From NCBI GenBank assembly GCA_034620365.1, contig JAQGEQ010000084.1:1302001-1366000 (forward strand): DNA of 64,000 nt. Direction: 5' to 3'. The notes beneath the pieces were generated by a model, which did no database searches, was not told where the DNA came from, and was given only the letters and a program-made list of their open reading frames with translations. This document shows positions 4,093-42,504 of this stretch, piece by piece (within the stretch, counting starts at the first letter, position 1; every line of letters begins with the position of its first letter). Made by a program: the position numbers and the translations under genes. The DNA comes from Pegea sp. RAD2-039 (taxonomy: Eukaryota > Chordata > Thaliacea > Salpida > Salpidae).

Positions 4093-5036
4093 CAGCTCTA
4101 CACGTCGTAGAAAGTTTGTCTATGAGCTGGCAGCTCAGAATCTAGCCCACAAAGTCTGAACTTATAACTTTCTCTCGTAAACCAGCTGCAAACTCTTTAA
4201 ACCAATATTCCATCAATGGATTTATTATTCCACGAATATCTTCGGTTCTAGACCTTGGCATTACTCTATCATCTAACTTTAAATGGTACAATTATATTTC
4301 CAAAATCTTTGAAAAATCAATCAACCTTGTAAAGACCTTTAATTCTAAGGATCAATACTTCTTAATTAGTCTTTTCAAATTATACGTACGTCCAATTCTT
4401 GAATACAATGTTAGTGCATGCATGCAATATCAAGTTAGTGATATCAAAAAAATCGAGTCTGTTCAGGCGACATTTACGAGGTTGGTATGCAGGAAACTTA
4501 ATATTAAATATGATAGTTATAAACATCGTCTTAACTCTTATTTCAGAGATAATCCACATTTTAGTTAACCTTAAATTCGATGATTTCTTTTCTATTAGTC
4601 CTTTCCTCAAGTTATATCAACTCAGACGACACACATTACATCTTAATAAGCCTATATTACCTGGTACGTTAATCAGAACACATTTTTTCTCATATCGCAC
4701 AATTAGTACTTGGAACCAGCTGCCGTCAGACATTATCATATCAGAATCACTCGTGTTCAAGCAGAAGTTGAACCGTTATAATATTACCAACATTGTCATT
4801 TCTAAACTTTGATTCCTTTTCTCTTTTTATATAATTAACATTCTATGTATTTGTTCACTGTTATATGTTTTGGGGACTATTGAAATGTCATGTGTTACAT
4901 CTTTTTCTTTCTATATTTATAACTTAATTATATCTAACAGGTTTTTGTATGTGAGGATGTCTGTCAGTGGGAGTTGCTCACTGCAGCCACTTTCCTTCGC
5001 GTTAATTGCAATAAATATATCAATCAAACAAACATC
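4093..5036 (+). mobile_element. 5'-truncated CR1-like LINE, RT C-terminal part and 3' UTR
   Basis: Translated pieces align with the end of ORF2 of the LINE at 14.3-18.5 kb: SEL.TFSRKPAA, SSVLDLGITLSSNFKW, LFKLYVRPILEYNVSA, RLVCRKLNIKYDSYKHRL, and the last residues NIVISKL before a stop near 4812. Stops and frameshifts interrupt it. The 3' UTR keeps a diverged version of the family's terminal block and ends in AATAAATATATCAATC near 5036. Confidence 0.85.
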
Positions 5037-12976: not shown

Positions 12977-13232
<256 letters not shown>

Positions 13233-14493: not shown

Positions 14494-17400
14494 TCACAGT
14501 TTAGAAATGGCAATGTTGACGATATTATAACAATTCAGCTTTTTTTTTGAACAACACAAGTGATTTTGACATGACAATCTCTGATGGCAGATTGTTCCAT
14601 ATACTGATTGTGCGGTATGAGAAAAAACTTAATCTGGTTAACGTAGCTGGTGGAGTGGGCTTATTAAGATGTAATTTATGTCTTCTAAGTTGATATAACT
14701 TGAGGGAGGGACTAATGGAGAAAAAGTCATCAAACTGAAGATCAATTAGGTTGTGAATAATTTTAAAAATCAGAATAAGGTCGTATTTAATTCTTCGGAT
14801 TTCCAAAGTATCTAGATTGAAGAAGCTGAGACGATGCTTATAACTCTCGTATTTGATATTAAGTTTCCTGCAAACTAATCTCGTAAATGTTGCCTGAACA
14901 GATTCGATTTTTCTGATATCACCAACTTGATATGGCATCCATGCACTGACATTGTATTCAAGAATAGGGCGTATGTACAGTTTGAAAAGGTTGACGAAAA
15001 ACCATGGATCTTTAGAATTAAAAGTCTTTATGATGAGGTGGACAAGCTTGATAGATTTTCCAAAGATTCTGGAAACATAACTGTGCCATTTGAAGTCAGA
15101 TGTCAGAGTAATGCCGAGGTCTATGACTGAGGATACTCGTTCAAGAATAGATCCATTGATGTAGTATTGGTTGCTGAAGTTGGCAGCTGGCTTACGGGAG
15201 AATGTTATAACTTCAGACTTTGTTGGCTGGATTTTAAGTTGCCAATTCGCAGACCAGTTTTCTACAATATTTAGTGCAGTTTGGAGTTTTGAGTGAGAAC
15301 CAGATAATAGCTTGATGTCGTCTGCATACACAAATACACTGACATTGTCTACTGTTATTAGTCTTCTGATGAGGTCTTCAATAAAATCAAAAAGAGAAGT
15401 GGACCCAGAACGGAACCCTGAGGAACACCGCTGGTGACTTTACTAGGAGTAGATAAAGATCTTTCTACACGGGTTCGTTGGGTTCTACCTGATAAGAAAT
15501 CTTCAATCCATTTTAAGATAGAGTTGCTGATTTTTATGTTTTTCAATACAGTAATGAGCTTGTTGTGTGGAACAGAATCAAACGCTTTAGCAAAATCAAG
15601 GTATATGATGTCACATGGAGTATTACTTTCGTAATGAGCTGTAAGCTCATTGAAAAAAGTGAGATGTTGAGTCAAAGAAGATCTTTGCTTAACAAAGCCA
15701 TGCTGGACATCAGATATCAGATGATGCTCCGTCAAATGGCTAGTTATATGGTTGTGAATGATATGTTCTTGAGTTCTGCAGATAGCCGAAGTCAGCGAAA
15801 CTGGTCTGTAGTTAAGTGCAGTGTTTCTGGGACCCTTCTTATAAATTGGAGTAATAATAGCATTCTTCCAAATTTGTGGAAGTCTTCCCCGCTTAAGAGT
15901 CATGTTAAAGAGTAGCGATAAGGGTAGCGCTAAAGAACAAGTACTTTTTCTTAAAAACAAAGCTGGGATTTGATCTGGGGTGTTGGAAACTGTTGATTTT
16001 AGAGAAGAAATAGCCTTAGATACTATATCAACTGTTATGTCTAGATCTACCATCTCAGAGATATTTGAAAGGATATTGGAGTAGGAAATAGTAGGAGTAT
16101 TGCCATCATCGGTTATAAAAACCTTTTCAAATTGTTTGTTTAGCAATTCAGCTTTACTCTTTGGTTCCATCACCAGCTGATTGGCGTTATCAAGCAAGGG
16201 AGGTAGATGAGATCTCACCTTAAGCTTGTGATTAATGAAGCCAAAAAACGTTTTCTTGCTAGGTGAAGATAAGATTGCACTTTCTTTTCCTAAATAGAGG
16301 CTATAAACTGATTTCTTGTAGACTAGACAAAGATCTTTGTATAGAGGTTTGATGGAAGGATCTGCTTTAGTTTGTTTGTATAAGAGGTTTTTCAAATGCT
16401 GTAAATTCCTTAAATATCTTGGCAAGTGGGGTTTTTTGTTGACTCTATATAAAGGTATGAACTTTTTAATTGACTCATTAACAATGTTAGTAAACCTCGA
16501 GTAGATATCATTGATGTCTTCGGTAGAGTTGAAAACAGAAATCCAGTCAACACCTGATAAAAACTTGTTTTTACTGTTATAATTTCCACGATAAAAGTTC
16601 CGTATGCTTGGAGTTTTAACGTTCGTAGAAAAAGTTTGTTGGAGTTTGAATTCAATCATGTTGTGATCGCATGTCAGAGCAAAAGGTTCATTTTGATCAA
16701 CGTAGATAACGTTCTCAGGTTTTGATGTGATGAGAAGATCCAAAGTATTACCACTAACTTGGGTTGGAAAAGTAACCATCTGAGATAGATTATTGGCATC
16801 AAGGAAGTTTACAAAGACATGACTCAGATTGGCTAAATTAGTTTTGTCTCCATTCAAATTAAACAATTTTCCATTGAATGCTAAATTTGGGTTATTCCAA
16901 TCAATTCTACTAAAATTAAAATCCCTGAGAATATAAATCTCAGGACAAACAAGGCTTTTCAGAACCTTCAATAAGGCCTTAATAGTAACCTCATCGTTAA
17001 CTTTAGACGGTGGTAGGTAGGTACATATAAAGCGGGAAAACTTAGACTTTGAGTAATGAAAATTGAAAGCAATAATCTCAAATCCTGGGCAATCAATGGT
17101 ATTTATCTTAATTCTTGAAATCATGGGTGCCAGTGATGTTTTATAGATCACACAAACACCGCCGCCTCTATCAAACAGTCTATCACAGCGCAAAGCACGA
17201 AAAAGATCACTGTCATCCAGAAAGGAGTCAGGATAAAAGGGTTTCAACCAAGTTTCGGTAATGAAAACAAATGTAAAATCTTGAGAAAACAAAAGAGCTT
17301 TCAATTCGAAAATTTTGTTGACAATTGACCGTGCGTTGAAAAACATACCTAATATAAAAGAAAAATTGTCTTTTTGACACTTGTAAGATTTGGTGGTAGG

Positions 17401-17541
17401 CTTCTGTGTACTGTTATCTTGGGCTGGAAGCATAGTATTAATAATTTTGTGCGAAGAGAGGTTGAATAAGGATGATGTGGGTCCAGTGATTATTTTGCAC
17501 TTCCGTTTTTTGAAAAGACCTTCACAATCTTTAAAGCCCAT
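14494..17541 (-). pseudogene. LINE ORF2: AP-type endonuclease and reverse transcriptase, frameshifted
   Basis: The endonuclease occupies about residues 65-310 (FNARSIVNKIFELK, FITETWLKPF, RDFNFSRIDW, CDHNMIEFK). The usual GDFN motif reads RDFN here. The reverse transcriptase follows (WKNAIITPIYKKG, NYRPVSLTS, IYLDFAKAFDSVPH, SGVPQGSVLGPLLF, YADDIKLLSG). The frame ends at 15358 because of a one-base loss near 15385, and resumes in another frame at 15331 with the YADD catalytic box. A second slip in an A-run near 14548 truncates the last dozen residues. The EN/RT pair would nick target DNA and copy element RNA. This copy cannot make the full enzyme. Confidence 0.92.
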
Positions 17542-17669
17542 GGTGGACCTCGAACTTTGTATTTGAAATCAGTTGGTTGCTCTTTCTGATTTCGGCTGTA
17601 CGCCTCTTTTAGAAGACGCTTATTTTCTAAGCGATCATCTTCACACATATCATGTGCTACTCTGATGCC

Positions 17670-18485
17670 CTAGAATTTTTCGTCCTGCTTAAGCTTATAC
17701 AGCTTAGCAAGAAACTTACGTTTGTCCCATCTTTCCTGAAAGGACACTTTTAACGGTCTTTTATGATTTGATCCTTTTGCCCCGAGTCTGGTCATTGAAA
17801 CTTTTGGAGCGTCCACAGCACCAATGCTTTGAGTGCACATTTGATTAAAAGTCTTGATGTCATCGTCTTTATCAGTCTCAGAGACACCAAAGATGATGAC
17901 ATTGTTTTCTCTATCCTCCCGGTCCAGAGTAAGTTTTTTGTGCGTGTCAGTAACCTTCTTGGCAAGAAGTTGCACCACGCTAGTATTTTTTTCGGATCCA
18001 GAATTACCAACAACTGAGGCCCATGTGAGAGGCTTCTTTGTGGAGGCATCCAGTTCAATCATAGATTTGGATAAGATAGAAATCTTTTCATTGATTTTGG
18101 CAACATCGTTGCCAATTTCGGATTTAAATTTGGCCAATTCAGTGGATATGGTGTTGCTGATGTCGGACAATAGGCTTGTATTAGTGTTGGACGAGGTGGT
18201 TGTTTTGTCCATAGATCTACATTTAATGCAGGACCAACAAAATCCCAATTGCTGCATTTTATTATTTTCAAATATATCATAAAATTTTTTACTCACATCA
18301 CTACAAGTGAGGTGAAACCTAGAGAGGCATTTGATGCAATCTATTGCCAGATCTTTACCAGAGCAAGTTTTGTTACAAGCTTGGCAATTGCCATTGCAAG
18401 CTTGTTTTGAAGAACTTGGTTTGCTTGGGTTTTTTGGAGCTTTTGACCGCAAGGTCCTGTCATTTGTATCTACCATAGTTTCCAT
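17670..18485 (-). pseudogene. LINE ORF1 protein with PHD finger, premature stop
   Basis: 271 codons to a TAG at 17670-17672. Residues about 33-85 form a C4HC3 PHD-like finger (CNGNCQACNKTC, CIKCLSRFHLTC, FCWSCIKC). A helical stretch follows, then an esterase-less nucleic-acid-binding-like region (NNVIIFGVSETD, MTRLGAKG). The same frame continues after the TAG to a second stop near 17490 through a segment typical of this ORF family (ENKRLLKEAYSRNQ, VRGPPWALK), so the TAG is probably a nonsense mutation. The uninterrupted frame would overlap the ORF2 start by about 50 bases, as in many CR1 elements. ORF1p of this group binds element RNA. Confidence 0.85.
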
Positions 18486-18490
18486 GATAG

Positions 18491-19236
18491 ATTTTTAGTA
18501 ACTCCCACCAAAGTATACAAGGTTAATAAAGTATACCAAATATACCAAGTTAATAATATATAATAATAAGTAGAAATATAAATAAATACACCACAAAAGT
18601 TAATCACAGCTTATTAGCAGCTATTCAAAAATGTGTATCCACCAAAGATTTATAAAAGATTTTTGCTGTCACCAACCACAAAATATAATATATATATAAT
18701 AAACAATTCACTTCCTAGAAATAACTTTATCACAACTTATAAGCACTTATTCAAATAGAACCTATAACCTTTAGAATTGAAATAAATCAAATATTTTATG
18801 TTAAGCATTTTCGCTATGTAAATCATTTATTATTAGTTTTTATAATGTTATTTCTTAGTTTATTATTAATTACCATTTATTGAAAAAGTTCAGATTATAT
18901 ATAGATTTAAATTAATGCCATTTATAAATATAACTTTTTGGCAAGTTTAGATTCTCTTTAAAAAGTGATTTATTTGATAAGTAGCTATATAAACTTCTGA
19001 ATTAAAAAATATCATTTATAATAATCTATATTTTGAATCATTATTCATTTAAAACATAATAAAGATTTAGTTTAGAATTAATAATTATTATTTATTACAT
19101 CTGTTTTTTTGTTTTTATTTACTTTTTGTGTTTTTATTGAAGACAGTTTTATTAAAAGCCTTCTTTTCTTTTTTATTAAAAAATGAATTTAATAATTTTC
19201 ACTTTTTTGGATTTAAATCTTTTTTTTTTCTTGTAG
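18491..19236. other. AT-rich gap above the LINE
   Basis: Contains probable LINE 5' UTR to about 18.75 kb, including two related segments (near 18599-18650 and 18715-18758), then plain AT-rich DNA ending in a long pyrimidine tract before a possible 3' splice site at 19236. Confidence 0.4.
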
Positions 19237-22961: not shown

Positions 22962-23252
22962 TTAAATATTGTTCAATTCCTCATCATTACGAATAGCCAG
23001 TTGTAAGTGACGAGGAATGATTCTACTCTTCTTGTTGTCACGAGCAGCATTGCCAGCTAATTCTAATACTTCAGCACTAAGATATTCCAACACTGCAGCC
23101 AAATACACAGGCGCTCCTGAACCAACTCGACTGGCGTAATTGCCATTTCTCAATAGTCGATGAACACGACCAACTGGAAATTGAAGTCCGGCTCGAGAAG
23201 AACGAGTCTTTGGTTTAGACTTGGTACTAGCACTCGTATCTTTGGATGACAT
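22962..23252 (-). pseudogene. Histone H2A, 3'-truncated (unit A)
   Basis: Residues 1-94 match the intact H2A at 31904-32278, with a slightly different N-tail ([14 protein letters not shown]). After RNDEELN the sequence changes abruptly to two foreign codons and a stop. The C-terminal 30 residues (docking domain, [12 protein letters not shown] onward) and the 3' stem-loop are missing. The protein would lack the surface that holds H3-H4, and the mRNA could not be processed normally, so I call it a pseudogene. It shares a divergent promoter with the intact H2B at 23418. Confidence 0.85.
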
Positions 23253-23319
23253 TTTAGCTATTAGATATATGATAAATAAGACAGCTGTAATATGTTGTTT
23301 TTAGATATAATCTATTTTG

Positions 23320-34897: not shown

Positions 34898-35473
34898 AGC
34901 GTTTCAAGTCACTTTTGTTTGATAAATAACTTAAATTGAAAATAATTTTAACTAATTATAAAAAGTAACTATCAATAGTTTTGAAGAGTAAGATTTACCC
35001 TGGTCAACACTAATAATTTCATACAAAACATCAACCATTAATTGCCATCAATTATGCTAATCACCTGTGTAATGTTGAATCATCACACCCACAATCTGAT
35101 TAATGAAAACACTTCTAGTTTGTCTGTTCTGCTGCATTACGTTGATGGCGTAGATAGTGGAATCCTGCTGTATTAACAACAGTTGGATCTCTTTATTACT
35201 GCCCTAGCATATGTGCATGAATGTTCTAGGCCAAAGCTGGCCAAAAATAATTCCTAATCACTCTTTTTTTTTTTATGTTTATATTTAAAACAAGATCTAT
35301 TAAGTTAATGAAGAAAGCGAAAAGTTAACAAAAATTTAAACGTAATCGAAGGAAGAAATTATTTTTATGCTGTACTCAGCCTAATACTGCCGGAAAAAAT
35401 AACCTGAAAACTAACTAATCGAATTTATTAATGGCTTGAGCAGCGTTTATTGAATTTTAGCTTTCATTTAGGT

Positions 35474-35489
35474 GGTTCTGAAAAGAACC
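35474..35489 (-). terminator. Histone 3' stem-loop (H1 pseudogene)
   Basis: Minus strand GGTTCTTTTCAGAACC, unchanged although the gene is broken. Confidence 0.9.
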
Positions 35490-35511
35490 GGTTGAAACTG
35501 AAATTTACAGC

Positions 35512-36063
35512 TTAAGCTTTTTTACCCACATACTTATTTGAAGCTGACTTTTTAACACAACTTTTAAAAATACATTTTTTTGCAGACTTTTTACCGAATG
35601 ATTTCTGTTTTACATGTCGGCTTTTTAGATTTCAATGCCAACACTTTTTGAGATGTCTTAAAGCAGGCTTTTTAGTTACTTTAACTTTTTGAAAAAGCAA
35701 CAGATTTCTTAGTCGATTTTTTTGCAACTAACGTTGTTTCTTAACCTTGCTTACAGATTTCTTTTCCACTTTAACAAGTTTAAAAGATCCAGAAGCTCCT
35801 ATTCCACTATCTTGAATCAGAGCGCCATCCGTAATTGCCTTTAGTATAGCTTTTCTTACATGCAATTCGAAGTTTTCTTTTACTTTATAATGTTCTTTAA
35901 TATAATTAGCAATAGTATGGCGGGAACTTCCTTTGCGTTGCTTTAATGCAGCAATAGAAGCCAGAACCATTTGCTTGAAAGTTGGATGATCTGTCAGTTT
36001 TTTCTGAACATTCTTTGTACGTTTAGAAGCAGCAGTATCGCCAGAAGCAGCTGAGACAACCAT
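35512..36063 (-). pseudogene. Linker histone H1, frameshifted C-terminal tail (unit B)
   Basis: The first 111 codons are open and keep the whole winged-helix domain (to SGSFKLVKVEKKSV). A frameshift then ends the frame at 35728 (SKVKKQR). The rest of the Lys-rich tail is recognisable to 35512 but carries several indels. A protein with globular domain and no tail could still be made, but decay of the tail suggests loss of function. Confidence 0.85.
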
Positions 36064-36130
36064 GACTAATTATGAGTAAGATTAATTCTAATCAATTGAC
36101 AACTGAAAAAGTAAACCTTTTCGTAATTTA

Positions 36131-39380: not shown

Positions 39381-41333
39381 GTCGTGAATTTGATGAATTC
39401 CGAAAGATTGGTAATTAATACTTTTAATTAAGTTTGTTTTCGATTACATTAAGCAAGTAATAAAATACTCAACAAAATTTGCTAATTTCTTTAGACTATA
39501 AATAAATAAAAGTAGATTCTCTTGCTTCTTGTTTTTTCTCCGTTGTAGCCGAAGTTTTATTTAAGTATCTCAAAAATGGAATTTTCTTATATAAAAGTTT
39601 TACCACTGGTTAAATACTACTACTTATTAAATTATTTTTAACTGGTTTCAATTTAACTTAAAACCATGTATACTTTGAATCAAAATCTTATTTTCGCTTG
39701 ATTGCATAAGAAGGATTTAAATTTGCTTATCTATAAAACATAAAGTGTAGTTTCACAATTTACGATCATCTAATCCAAAATCATGTAAAACATAAAAAAG
39801 AATACTGATTATAAAAATGCTGCAAAATTATAAAAGAAGAAATTTAGTCAGTTTTTGGAGCATTATGTTCATTAAAGGTTGACAATCTAATTCTCAGGAA
39901 AATAATAATTATTCAATAATGAAAACTTAATTTAGTTCAAGAAAATATATTTAACTTTCAAAACTTTTGCATAAAACTAGACGAAATTATTAAAAGAAAT
40001 TAATCATATTACAATGTAAAGATTGCTTTACTTACGAAACGTTTTTCTTCACTTTAATTAATTTTAAAATTTTCATGTGTGCCTGTGTATTCCAAAATCT
40101 TACAAATGACTTTCCCCTCTTTCTAAACAGCAAATTTTATGAATGAGTTTTATACAAGATGCTATAAATTCATTCTAAGATTTGTTGCGCAAGTTGATTT
40201 TTACAGTTTAAATTTGATTATTTTTGTAATTAAGTATTCTTTTGTAAACAAGCCTCTTACAATATTTCTTAGGTTATTTGTCCTTTTTACTTTTTTATCA
40301 GCTGGATTTTGGAATCTTTACTCATCTTCATTAAATGATAATAAAACATTATATTTGTAGTTGATGTGAATTAACTTGTATTTTCAGGTTTAATTTTCTC
40401 AAAACAAGTTTGTATACTATCATTTTGTATACAGAAAATTAGATTAATAGTATAAAGTTGTGGAAAGTAAGAGAATTTAAAGACCAATTACTTTAGAACT
40501 TTTAAATGCTTCAGTAACATTGTATTCAAAAAACTGAGAATATTAAAAAAATATTTTATTTACAATTTTTCTATAGTTTGTCAAAGAGATGATTCAATTT
40601 TTACTTAAATACAAAAGCAAAGTATATTTGAAGGCAAAATTTTGTTGATATTTCATACAAGATAATTAGCTTAATGAAGTTAAAACGTTTTGGAATGTTT
40701 AACTTAATAACTTTTTAATTTATTATTTTTCAATTTAAAGAATCGAATAATTATAATGATTTTTAGAAGTTTTCCAGTTTTATAAATTGCAAATTTTATT
40801 TCAAATTTAATAATTTTTTTGACAACTTGATTTTCTACTTGCTCATAAAAATGATGCATGCAACGGTTATACCATCATATATCAAAATAAACAAATAATC
40901 TAATTTTTTTTTTTTTGATCATTAATTTAATTACAGAGCTTATATCAACTTACAAGCTAAAAGGCTTTATAATATATATTTCTAACATATCAAAAAATTT
41001 CTTAAACTGTTAATTTCACTAATAACAAAAGTAATCAGATAGTTCTATGTTTATCAATGATTATATTCATTTGGCTTATTATCTTCATAATATCTAAAAG
41101 TCTTTATTTTATTCAGCGTTGATAGAAAGTAATCTTTAATTGTATTTAATTGTATTTTTTAAAAGTAAGTCTTGTGATATTAAAATATTATAATTGAAAA
41201 TAGAGTAAAATAAATCAACCTAAATTTCTTCTGTTAGTTTGTAATTTATTTGTTTTTGTCAAAAATTCAAAAAACCTATAACACACAAAATAGAAAGTAA
41301 AATAAGCAATAGAATCAGAACTTTAATTGTCAT
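39381..41333. other. AT-rich gap
   Basis: No supported gene. The start (39381-39700) faintly resembles the upstream flank of H1. A 73-codon plus ORF at 40139-40360 is hydrophobic and low-complexity, and I do not support it. Confidence 0.4.
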
Positions 41334-41481
41334 GATTAAACTGAAAAGTTTTTTAAAAACTTTATTTTTTGATTAAACTGAAAAGTTTTTTAAAAACTTT
41401 ATTTTTTGATTAAACTGAAAAGTTTTTTAAAAACTTTATTTTTTGATTAAACTGAAAAGTTTTTTAAAAACTTTATTGCTT
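41334..41481. repeat. Four tandem copies of a 37-base unit, each a palindrome
   Basis: Units start at 41334, 41371, 41408 and 41445 with no visible differences. Each contains the inverted repeat AAAGTTTTTTAAAAACTTT, so four hairpins can form in a row. The array lies 330 bases downstream of the IL-17-like gene. Confidence 0.9.
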
Positions 41482-41809: not shown

Positions 41810-42504
41810 TTATAAATTTTTTACACAAACACAAGCAACTGGAACATAAACAAAAAAAATCTGATATCTTTTTCTCTTTTTCTGATATTTTACTTGAATA
41901 GGTCGAATAACAGGCAATGATGTGTTATAAGAAGCTGTGCCAGAAAACTGATCAGGAAAAATACATCCATCAGTCAGACACACAGCAGCCCTAAACTTCC
42001 TCGGAATTGTTCGACGGCATTTGATAATCACTTCTTTCCATGGTGCAAATCCCTTCTCGGGAACTAGAAGCCTTTCTCGTTGTGATTTACAATTTGATAC
42101 TAAAAATTCTCTAATAAAAAGATTTTATTTCTTGATGATGTAATATTTTTTGTAATCTTTTAGATATTTTAAATAAATGATCAACAATTCCAATTAACCA
42201 AATGTATTTATTGGAAGAAGTTTTTGAAATATTATGTCTAATAAAAGCTAATATTTACTGATATCTTTGGAATTTCCCCAAGACTGTCATCATTCTATTT
42301 AAGTCTTCATCAACTGCATCAATAAATTGACAGGAAAAATATATAGAAAGTACCTTAATAAATGAAATAATTAAAATAAGTTACAATATAAAAATGGAAT
42401 GTTACAATAAATATATTTTCAAAAATGATTTAAGCAATAAAAAGTAGGTTACTATTAAAAGATAAATATAATAAACTTACTATAAAAGTATTCGTAATTT
42501 TCAT
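41810..42504 (-). CDS. Secreted interleukin-17-like cytokine, three exons
   Basis: Exons 42481-42504, 42259-42353 and 41810-42110 (minus), GT-AG introns with matching phases, 139 residues. Residues 1-21 form a good signal peptide (MKITNTFIVLSIYFSCQFIDA). The C-terminal domain has IL-17 landmarks in order: APWKEV, IPRKFRAAVCLTDGC (compare the family's RxPxxxxEAxCxxxGC), LPVIRPIQV (PVxxPxxV) and VPVACVCV (VPVGCTCV). The two Cys pairs CxxxxC and CxC are the four that build the IL-17 cystine-knot-like fold. The Cys usually found between strands 3 and 4 is replaced by a basic KKRKRY. IL-17 proteins are secreted dimers that signal through IL-17 receptors in immunity. No other gene lies nearby. The exon 2 frame and start depend on my splice calls. 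Confidence 0.8.

Follow-up and report, generated by a model that had tools for sequence, protein, structure and literature searches.

A divergent three-exon gene for a probable IL-17-type cytokine in the salp Pegea sp.

The question raised by this locus is whether a frame divided over two short leading exons and a longer last exon represents a genuine and intact gene for a secreted cytokine of the IL-17 family, or whether its resemblance to that family has another explanation. The locus lies in a stretch of 64,000 nucleotides from Pegea sp. RAD2-039 (contig JAQGEQ010000084.1, positions 1,302,001 to 1,366,000; hereafter the window), and the minus-strand gene at 42504-41810 is referred to as the window gene; C1, C3, C4, C14, C29, C76, and C265 are contigs of the same genome. 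The evidence set out below favors, with a probability of about 0.85, a small secreted IL-17-type tunicate cytokine gene that is intact and protein-coding and whose product is predicted to act through SEFIR receptors.

A preliminary description had proposed that exons of 8 codons, 95 bases, and 301 bases join with exact phase into 139 residues. All of these elements are present: the three exons (42504-42481, 42353-42259, and 42110-41810) splice together without a break in the frame into 139 residues followed by a stop codon, and both introns are of the GT-AG type. The proposed motif order (PW, IPxxxxAAxCxxxxC, PVxxPxxV, VPVACVCV) was likewise found in the protein. The features of the gene, in window coordinates, are as follows.

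42481..42504, minus strand: coding exon 1, 24 bases, 8 codons (MKITNTFI), ending in phase 0 at the donor GTAAGT
42354..42480, minus strand: intron 1, GT-AG, 127 bases, GC 0.15
42259..42353, minus strand: coding exon 2, 95 bases, with the remaining predicted signal peptide and the start of the mature protein
42111..42258, minus strand: intron 2, GT-AG, 148 bases, phase 2, GC 0.18
41810..42110, minus strand: coding exon 3, 301 bases, with the putative IL-17 domain and the stop codon
41822..42046, minus strand: match to Pfam IL17, profile positions 3-80 of 81, covering W64, C71, C84, C89, C133, and C135
41669..41674, minus strand: AATAAA, a possible poly(A) signal some 135 bases past the stop codon, weak as evidence because the surrounding sequence is AT-rich

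Exons 2 and 3 have a GC content of 0.31 and 0.35, respectively, against the much lower intron values listed above, and exon 1, at 0.17, is intron-like. At the DNA level, a search with exon 3 finds a single place in the 105.7 Mb assembly. The signal peptide that had been claimed is borne out to the extent that the N-terminus has a signal-like start, scoring 2.56 by a crude rule combining a hydrophobic core with the -3/-1 positions rather than by SignalP, and cleavage would be expected after A21. With an open three-exon frame, intact splice sites, a signal-like start, and four knot cysteines, the window gene reads at the sequence level as an intact, protein-coding gene.

The window contains several other elements. 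Histone genes are dispersed along it (H3, H4, H2A, H2B, and H1, of which H3, H4, and H2B were named by eye), with frames at 13002-13232, 22962-23300, and 35728-36069; some of the frames look shortened, including one 3' part of an H3, an H2A without its C-terminal tail, and a short H1. One histone 3' stem-loop at 35449-35494 exceeds the Rfam gathering score. Positions 14525-18494 hold a LINE-like element that encodes endonuclease and reverse transcriptase domains, and a frame at 4146-4568 resembles such an element by eye. A perfect 37-base tandem repeat of 3.9 copies lies at 41333-41477, about 330 bases beyond the stop codon of the window gene.

The reading of this gene as a diverged IL-17 is supported by the Pfam IL17 profile (PF06083, cut-off 24 bits), which scores the spliced protein at 42.4 bits (E 9.4e-11) and exon 3 by itself at 43.6 bits. 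The sole other Pfam family listed for the protein, FlhE, stays under its cut-off of 25 at 13.4 bits. In a genome-wide search, the IL17 profile identifies five places: the window gene ranks best at 43.3 bits (G000:C11:1343822-1344046, converted to the coordinates above with the window offset), C29 has two matches over the cut-off (35.8 and 25.8 bits) and one below it (23.1), and C3 has one below it (17.8). No solved IL-17 structure was retrieved from the PDB by phmmer with the window protein or with a three-member profile, and AlphaFold2 gave a poor model of exon 3 alone from the single sequence without an alignment (mean pLDDT 41.3). A CPW or SPW motif is reported to precede the knot in the IL-17 family (PMC8353272); the window gene has APW, with PW retained at residues 63-64 and a different residue ahead of it.

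Four relatives in the same genome form a class with the window gene. Three of them, C3A, C3B, and C3C, have three-exon gene models.

L023 3756-3764, 3841-3938, 4036-4312: C3A
L023 1550-1542, 1485-1379, 1274-965, minus strand: C3B
L045 1193-1201, 1286-1383, 1500-1764: C3C, found with C3B as the query (E 0.0012)

In each of these, a first exon of 3 codons (MIK, MLK, MYK) is followed by a phase-0 intron, an exon 2 of 98, 107, or 98 bases encoding the predicted signal peptide, a second intron in phase 2, and a last exon resembling IL-17. The intron phases of the window gene are therefore repeated in three paralogues, which upholds the three-exon model, and the short-first-exon architecture is common to four of the five class members. 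The fifth, C265, matches the window-gene exon 3 weakly (E 0.48, and 0.26 in the reverse direction), and its model includes a guessed first exon and two possible acceptors for the last. A genome search with exon 3 of the window gene returned only itself and C265, the C3 genes not being among the matches. By BLASTP the window gene scores 26.9 bits against C3B and 24.6 against C3A, and those two score 62.8 against each other. The class is nonetheless recovered by leave-one-out profiles, in which each of the five scores 34.1-71.6 bits against the other four with none of 500 shuffles as high in any case; the window gene reaches 39.1 bits, and the best of its shuffles 9.8. Pfam IL17 places two of the sister genes below the cut-off, at 17.6 and 14.2 bits, and a Pfam scan of C3C and C265 yields no family up to E 10. 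Since four of the five members thus lie under the Pfam cut-off in this genome, counts of IL-17 repertoires based on the profile only may be too small.

Seven positions are invariant across the class (C47, W64, C71, C84, P106, P130, and C133), and the PW pair is kept in three of the five. The knot cysteines of the window gene, C84, C89, C133, and C135, follow the order CxxxxC ... CxC, and C84-C133 and C89-C135 would pair as they do in IL-17. C89 and C135 are present in every member except C3C, which lacks both; their joint absence fits a bond between them, albeit as one case. C47 and C71, which like C84 and C133 occur in every member, may form an additional bond. A further cysteine, in the loop, occurs in C3A, C3B, and C3C and is absent from the window gene and C265; its position resembles that of the chain-linking cysteine of human IL-17. 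The earlier suggestions that the window gene has lost one family cysteine and gained a KKRKRY patch are consistent with these comparisons, as this member alone has three or more consecutive K/R residues (KKRKR, residues 117-121). Because this patch replaces the loop cysteine, the window-gene product may dimerize non-covalently; speculatively, its basic loop might bind acidic glycans. Taking K, R, D, and E into account, the product has a net charge of +13 past residue 21, and it has one sequon, at N102. A fifth spatially conserved cysteine is reported for the IL-17 family (PMC4517768); the window gene has C47 and C71 and lacks the loop cysteine.

A second type of IL-17 gene resides on C29, where at least five last exons of the CCVCxxC ... 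GCTC type were found (L021 and L022, about 804-818 kb). Like the window gene, these genes match the IL17 profile, with frames at 36.9, 30.8, and 24.2 bits over the cut-off and at 19.1 and 11.5 below it. Unlike the window gene, they have a separate upstream exon that ends shortly past SPW in three of the four copies inspected and past SPG in the fourth. When the five C29 exons are made into a profile, its matches include IL-17F structures at E 0.005; unrelated DotN chains follow at E 0.03. Together, the class of five and the C29 genes bring the genome to about ten IL-17-type genes. Recognition between the two types is poor: the C29 exons score -2.5 to 6.9 bits on the class profile, hhalign gives no significant alignment (probability 0.7%, E 0.075), and the window gene obtains 5.1 bits on the C29 profile, a score matched by 11 of 500 shuffles. 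Consequently, it is chiefly the Pfam profile and the order of motifs that tie the window gene to IL-17.

Whether the leading exons are the right ones deserves separate consideration, as exon 3 might be a genuine IL-17 exon whose real 5' exons are others, with a different first exon or start codon. This is unlikely. Such an error is suggested by the 8 codons of exon 1 compared with 3 in the C3 relatives, and by an N-terminal-only profile that on joined peptides gives the window-gene peptide -0.5 bits and does not discriminate, one other acceptor tying with it and the high-scoring sites sharing exons 1 and 2. Against it, the phases are identical and the length of exon 2 is near that of the three paralogues, and a profile made from C3A, C3B, and C3C alone rises from 23.5 bits on the unspliced exon 3 frame to 29.7 on the spliced protein (the next best of 1862 searched sequences scoring 7.5), so exons 1 and 2 contribute similarity. 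The scarcity of comparable joins points the same way. AG sites on both window strands, excluding the first 700 bases of each, were scanned for joins in which an ATG plus 3-12 codons runs up to a GTRAG donor, the first intron measures 51-250 bases and the second 61-200, and exon 2 is 80-125 bases long, ends in phase 2, and has a pyrimidine-rich acceptor in front and a consensus-like donor behind. Joins of the window-gene architecture were possible at 21 of 6843 sites, a figure that is a description and not a clean probability because the rules were set once the genes had been seen. Eight of the 21 had a signal-peptide-like start, and all eight used exons 1 and 2 of the window gene, leaving one distinct signal-bearing peptide under these rules. 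A predicted signal peptide is reported to be absent from one third of invertebrate IL-17 members (PMC4517768).

Two further explanations question the identity or the activity of the gene rather than its 5' end. The product could be a secreted cystine-knot protein that resembles IL-17 by convergence only and uses an unrelated receptor, a very unlikely reading to which the four class members under the Pfam cut-off, the non-significant comparison with the C29 profile, and the PDB search without a solved IL-17 lend some weight. However, the window gene stands 18 bits over a curated cut-off, retains the motif order PW ... P ... A.C....C ... P ... P..C.C, and has as its next family only FlhE, at 13.4 of the 25 bits required; moreover, the C29 IL-17 profile gives C3B 12.2 bits, a value equaled by none of 500 shuffles. 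Least probable of the alternatives is a decaying or newly silenced IL-17 copy in which the frame is open and expression has been lost. This idea is suggested by C3C without two knot cysteines, C265 without the loop preceding the last motif, and the shortened histone frames and the retroelement frames of the window, but in the window gene itself the splice sites are intact, the frame is open, the start is signal-like, and none of the four knot cysteines is missing, and it is the top IL17 match in the genome search.

An intact IL-17-type cytokine gene, then, is the preferred reading, and candidate receptors for such a ligand exist in the same genome. A search for SEFIR domains gave six matches, five of them over the cut-off: two on C1, two on C76, and one on C4, the last adjoined by a sub-threshold second piece. 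The C1 and C76 pairs are each arranged in tandem.

L025 4500-6323 and 6662-8428: C1 tandem SEFIR genes, frames of 608 and 589 residues, SEFIR at residues 379-523 and 383-515
L026 2516-4288 and 6802-8580: C76 tandem SEFIR genes, frames of 591 and 593 residues, SEFIR at residues 266-403 and 268-405

By eye, these four frames have a hydrophobic start and a transmembrane-like stretch ahead of SEFIR, and scans of them matched no IL-17 receptor ectodomain family; the SEFIR genes are probably IL-17 receptors. In the C76 pair, the DNA is 99.3% identical over the 1220 bp of the membrane and intracellular half, whereas at the protein level the outer halves agree at 59 of 175 aligned residues (about 34%) within the first 180 columns. 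This pattern suggests that the signaling half was recently duplicated, or copied by gene conversion, alongside a different ectodomain. The window-gene product would fold as an IL-17 dimer, the dimer may bind a SEFIR receptor as its partner, and binding might trigger an inflammatory or barrier response, by analogy with IL-17s elsewhere.

Several other features of the genome point to a tunicate. On C14, a CesA-like exon with TED and QxxRW motifs, which we take to be those of cellulose synthase, is followed by a GH6 exon (L040 2238-4833), the GH6 match lying about 1.5 kb past the CesA-like exon and scoring 27.5 bits against a cut-off of 27; among animals, a CesA-GH6 gene is characteristic of tunicates. 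TTAGGG arrays occur on four contigs. A rotifer spliced-leader sequence had no match in the genome, and a rotifer origin was set aside in view of the CesA-like/GH6 locus; COX1 gave no hit either. Homeodomains presumably represent Hox1, Hox2, Hox4, two posterior Hox genes, Cdx, and Xlox, and the 10 homeodomain matches at E 1e-8 or better include no central-class Hox, with neither Hox5 nor Hox6 seen among them. Early tunicates are reported to have lost Hox7-9 and Hox11, and some homeoboxes to contain introns; Hox5 and Hox6 are reported as present in Ciona and Corella (PMC7337526).

A more ambitious proposal is that the five genes form an IL-17 branch confined to tunicates, whose disulfide plan would be distinct: an extra C47/C71 pair, a knot bond that C3C has lost as a whole, and an interchain loop cysteine that the window gene has exchanged for a polybasic loop. 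Its receptors would diversify their outer halves while their signaling halves stay near-identical, as in the C76 pair. This is tentative and rather unlikely; if true, it would amount to a system for diversifying ligands and receptors in an animal closely related to vertebrates. In any case, natural variation within the branch can be used to ask which IL-17 disulfides can be dispensed with. No short-first-exon IL-17 branch is described among the literature matches listed, which cover titles and the starts of abstracts and lie mostly outside subscription journals. The novelty lies in the branch and in how its cysteines vary, the window gene itself being an ordinary, divergent member of a known family. 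With the IL-17 family (PF06083) it shares a profile score over the cut-off, the CxxxxC and CxC knot cysteines, PW, a signal-like start, and the presence of SEFIR genes in the genome. It differs in that its class keeps C47 and C71 throughout, in having KKRKR in place of the loop cysteine of its relatives, and in its very short first exon. Among the closest characterized systems are those of other tunicates, in which three Ciona IL-17 genes and one Botryllus orthologue are described (PMC5465252, PMC10433773), one survey counting 7 Ciona IL-17 sequences (PMC8353272) and another also covering the Ciona genes (PMC4517768). Ciona IL17-1, IL17-2, IL17-3, and IL17R come from the same subphylum as the host of the window gene, and these ligands are reported together with one receptor, some of them reacting to microbial stimuli (PMC10433773, PMC5465252).
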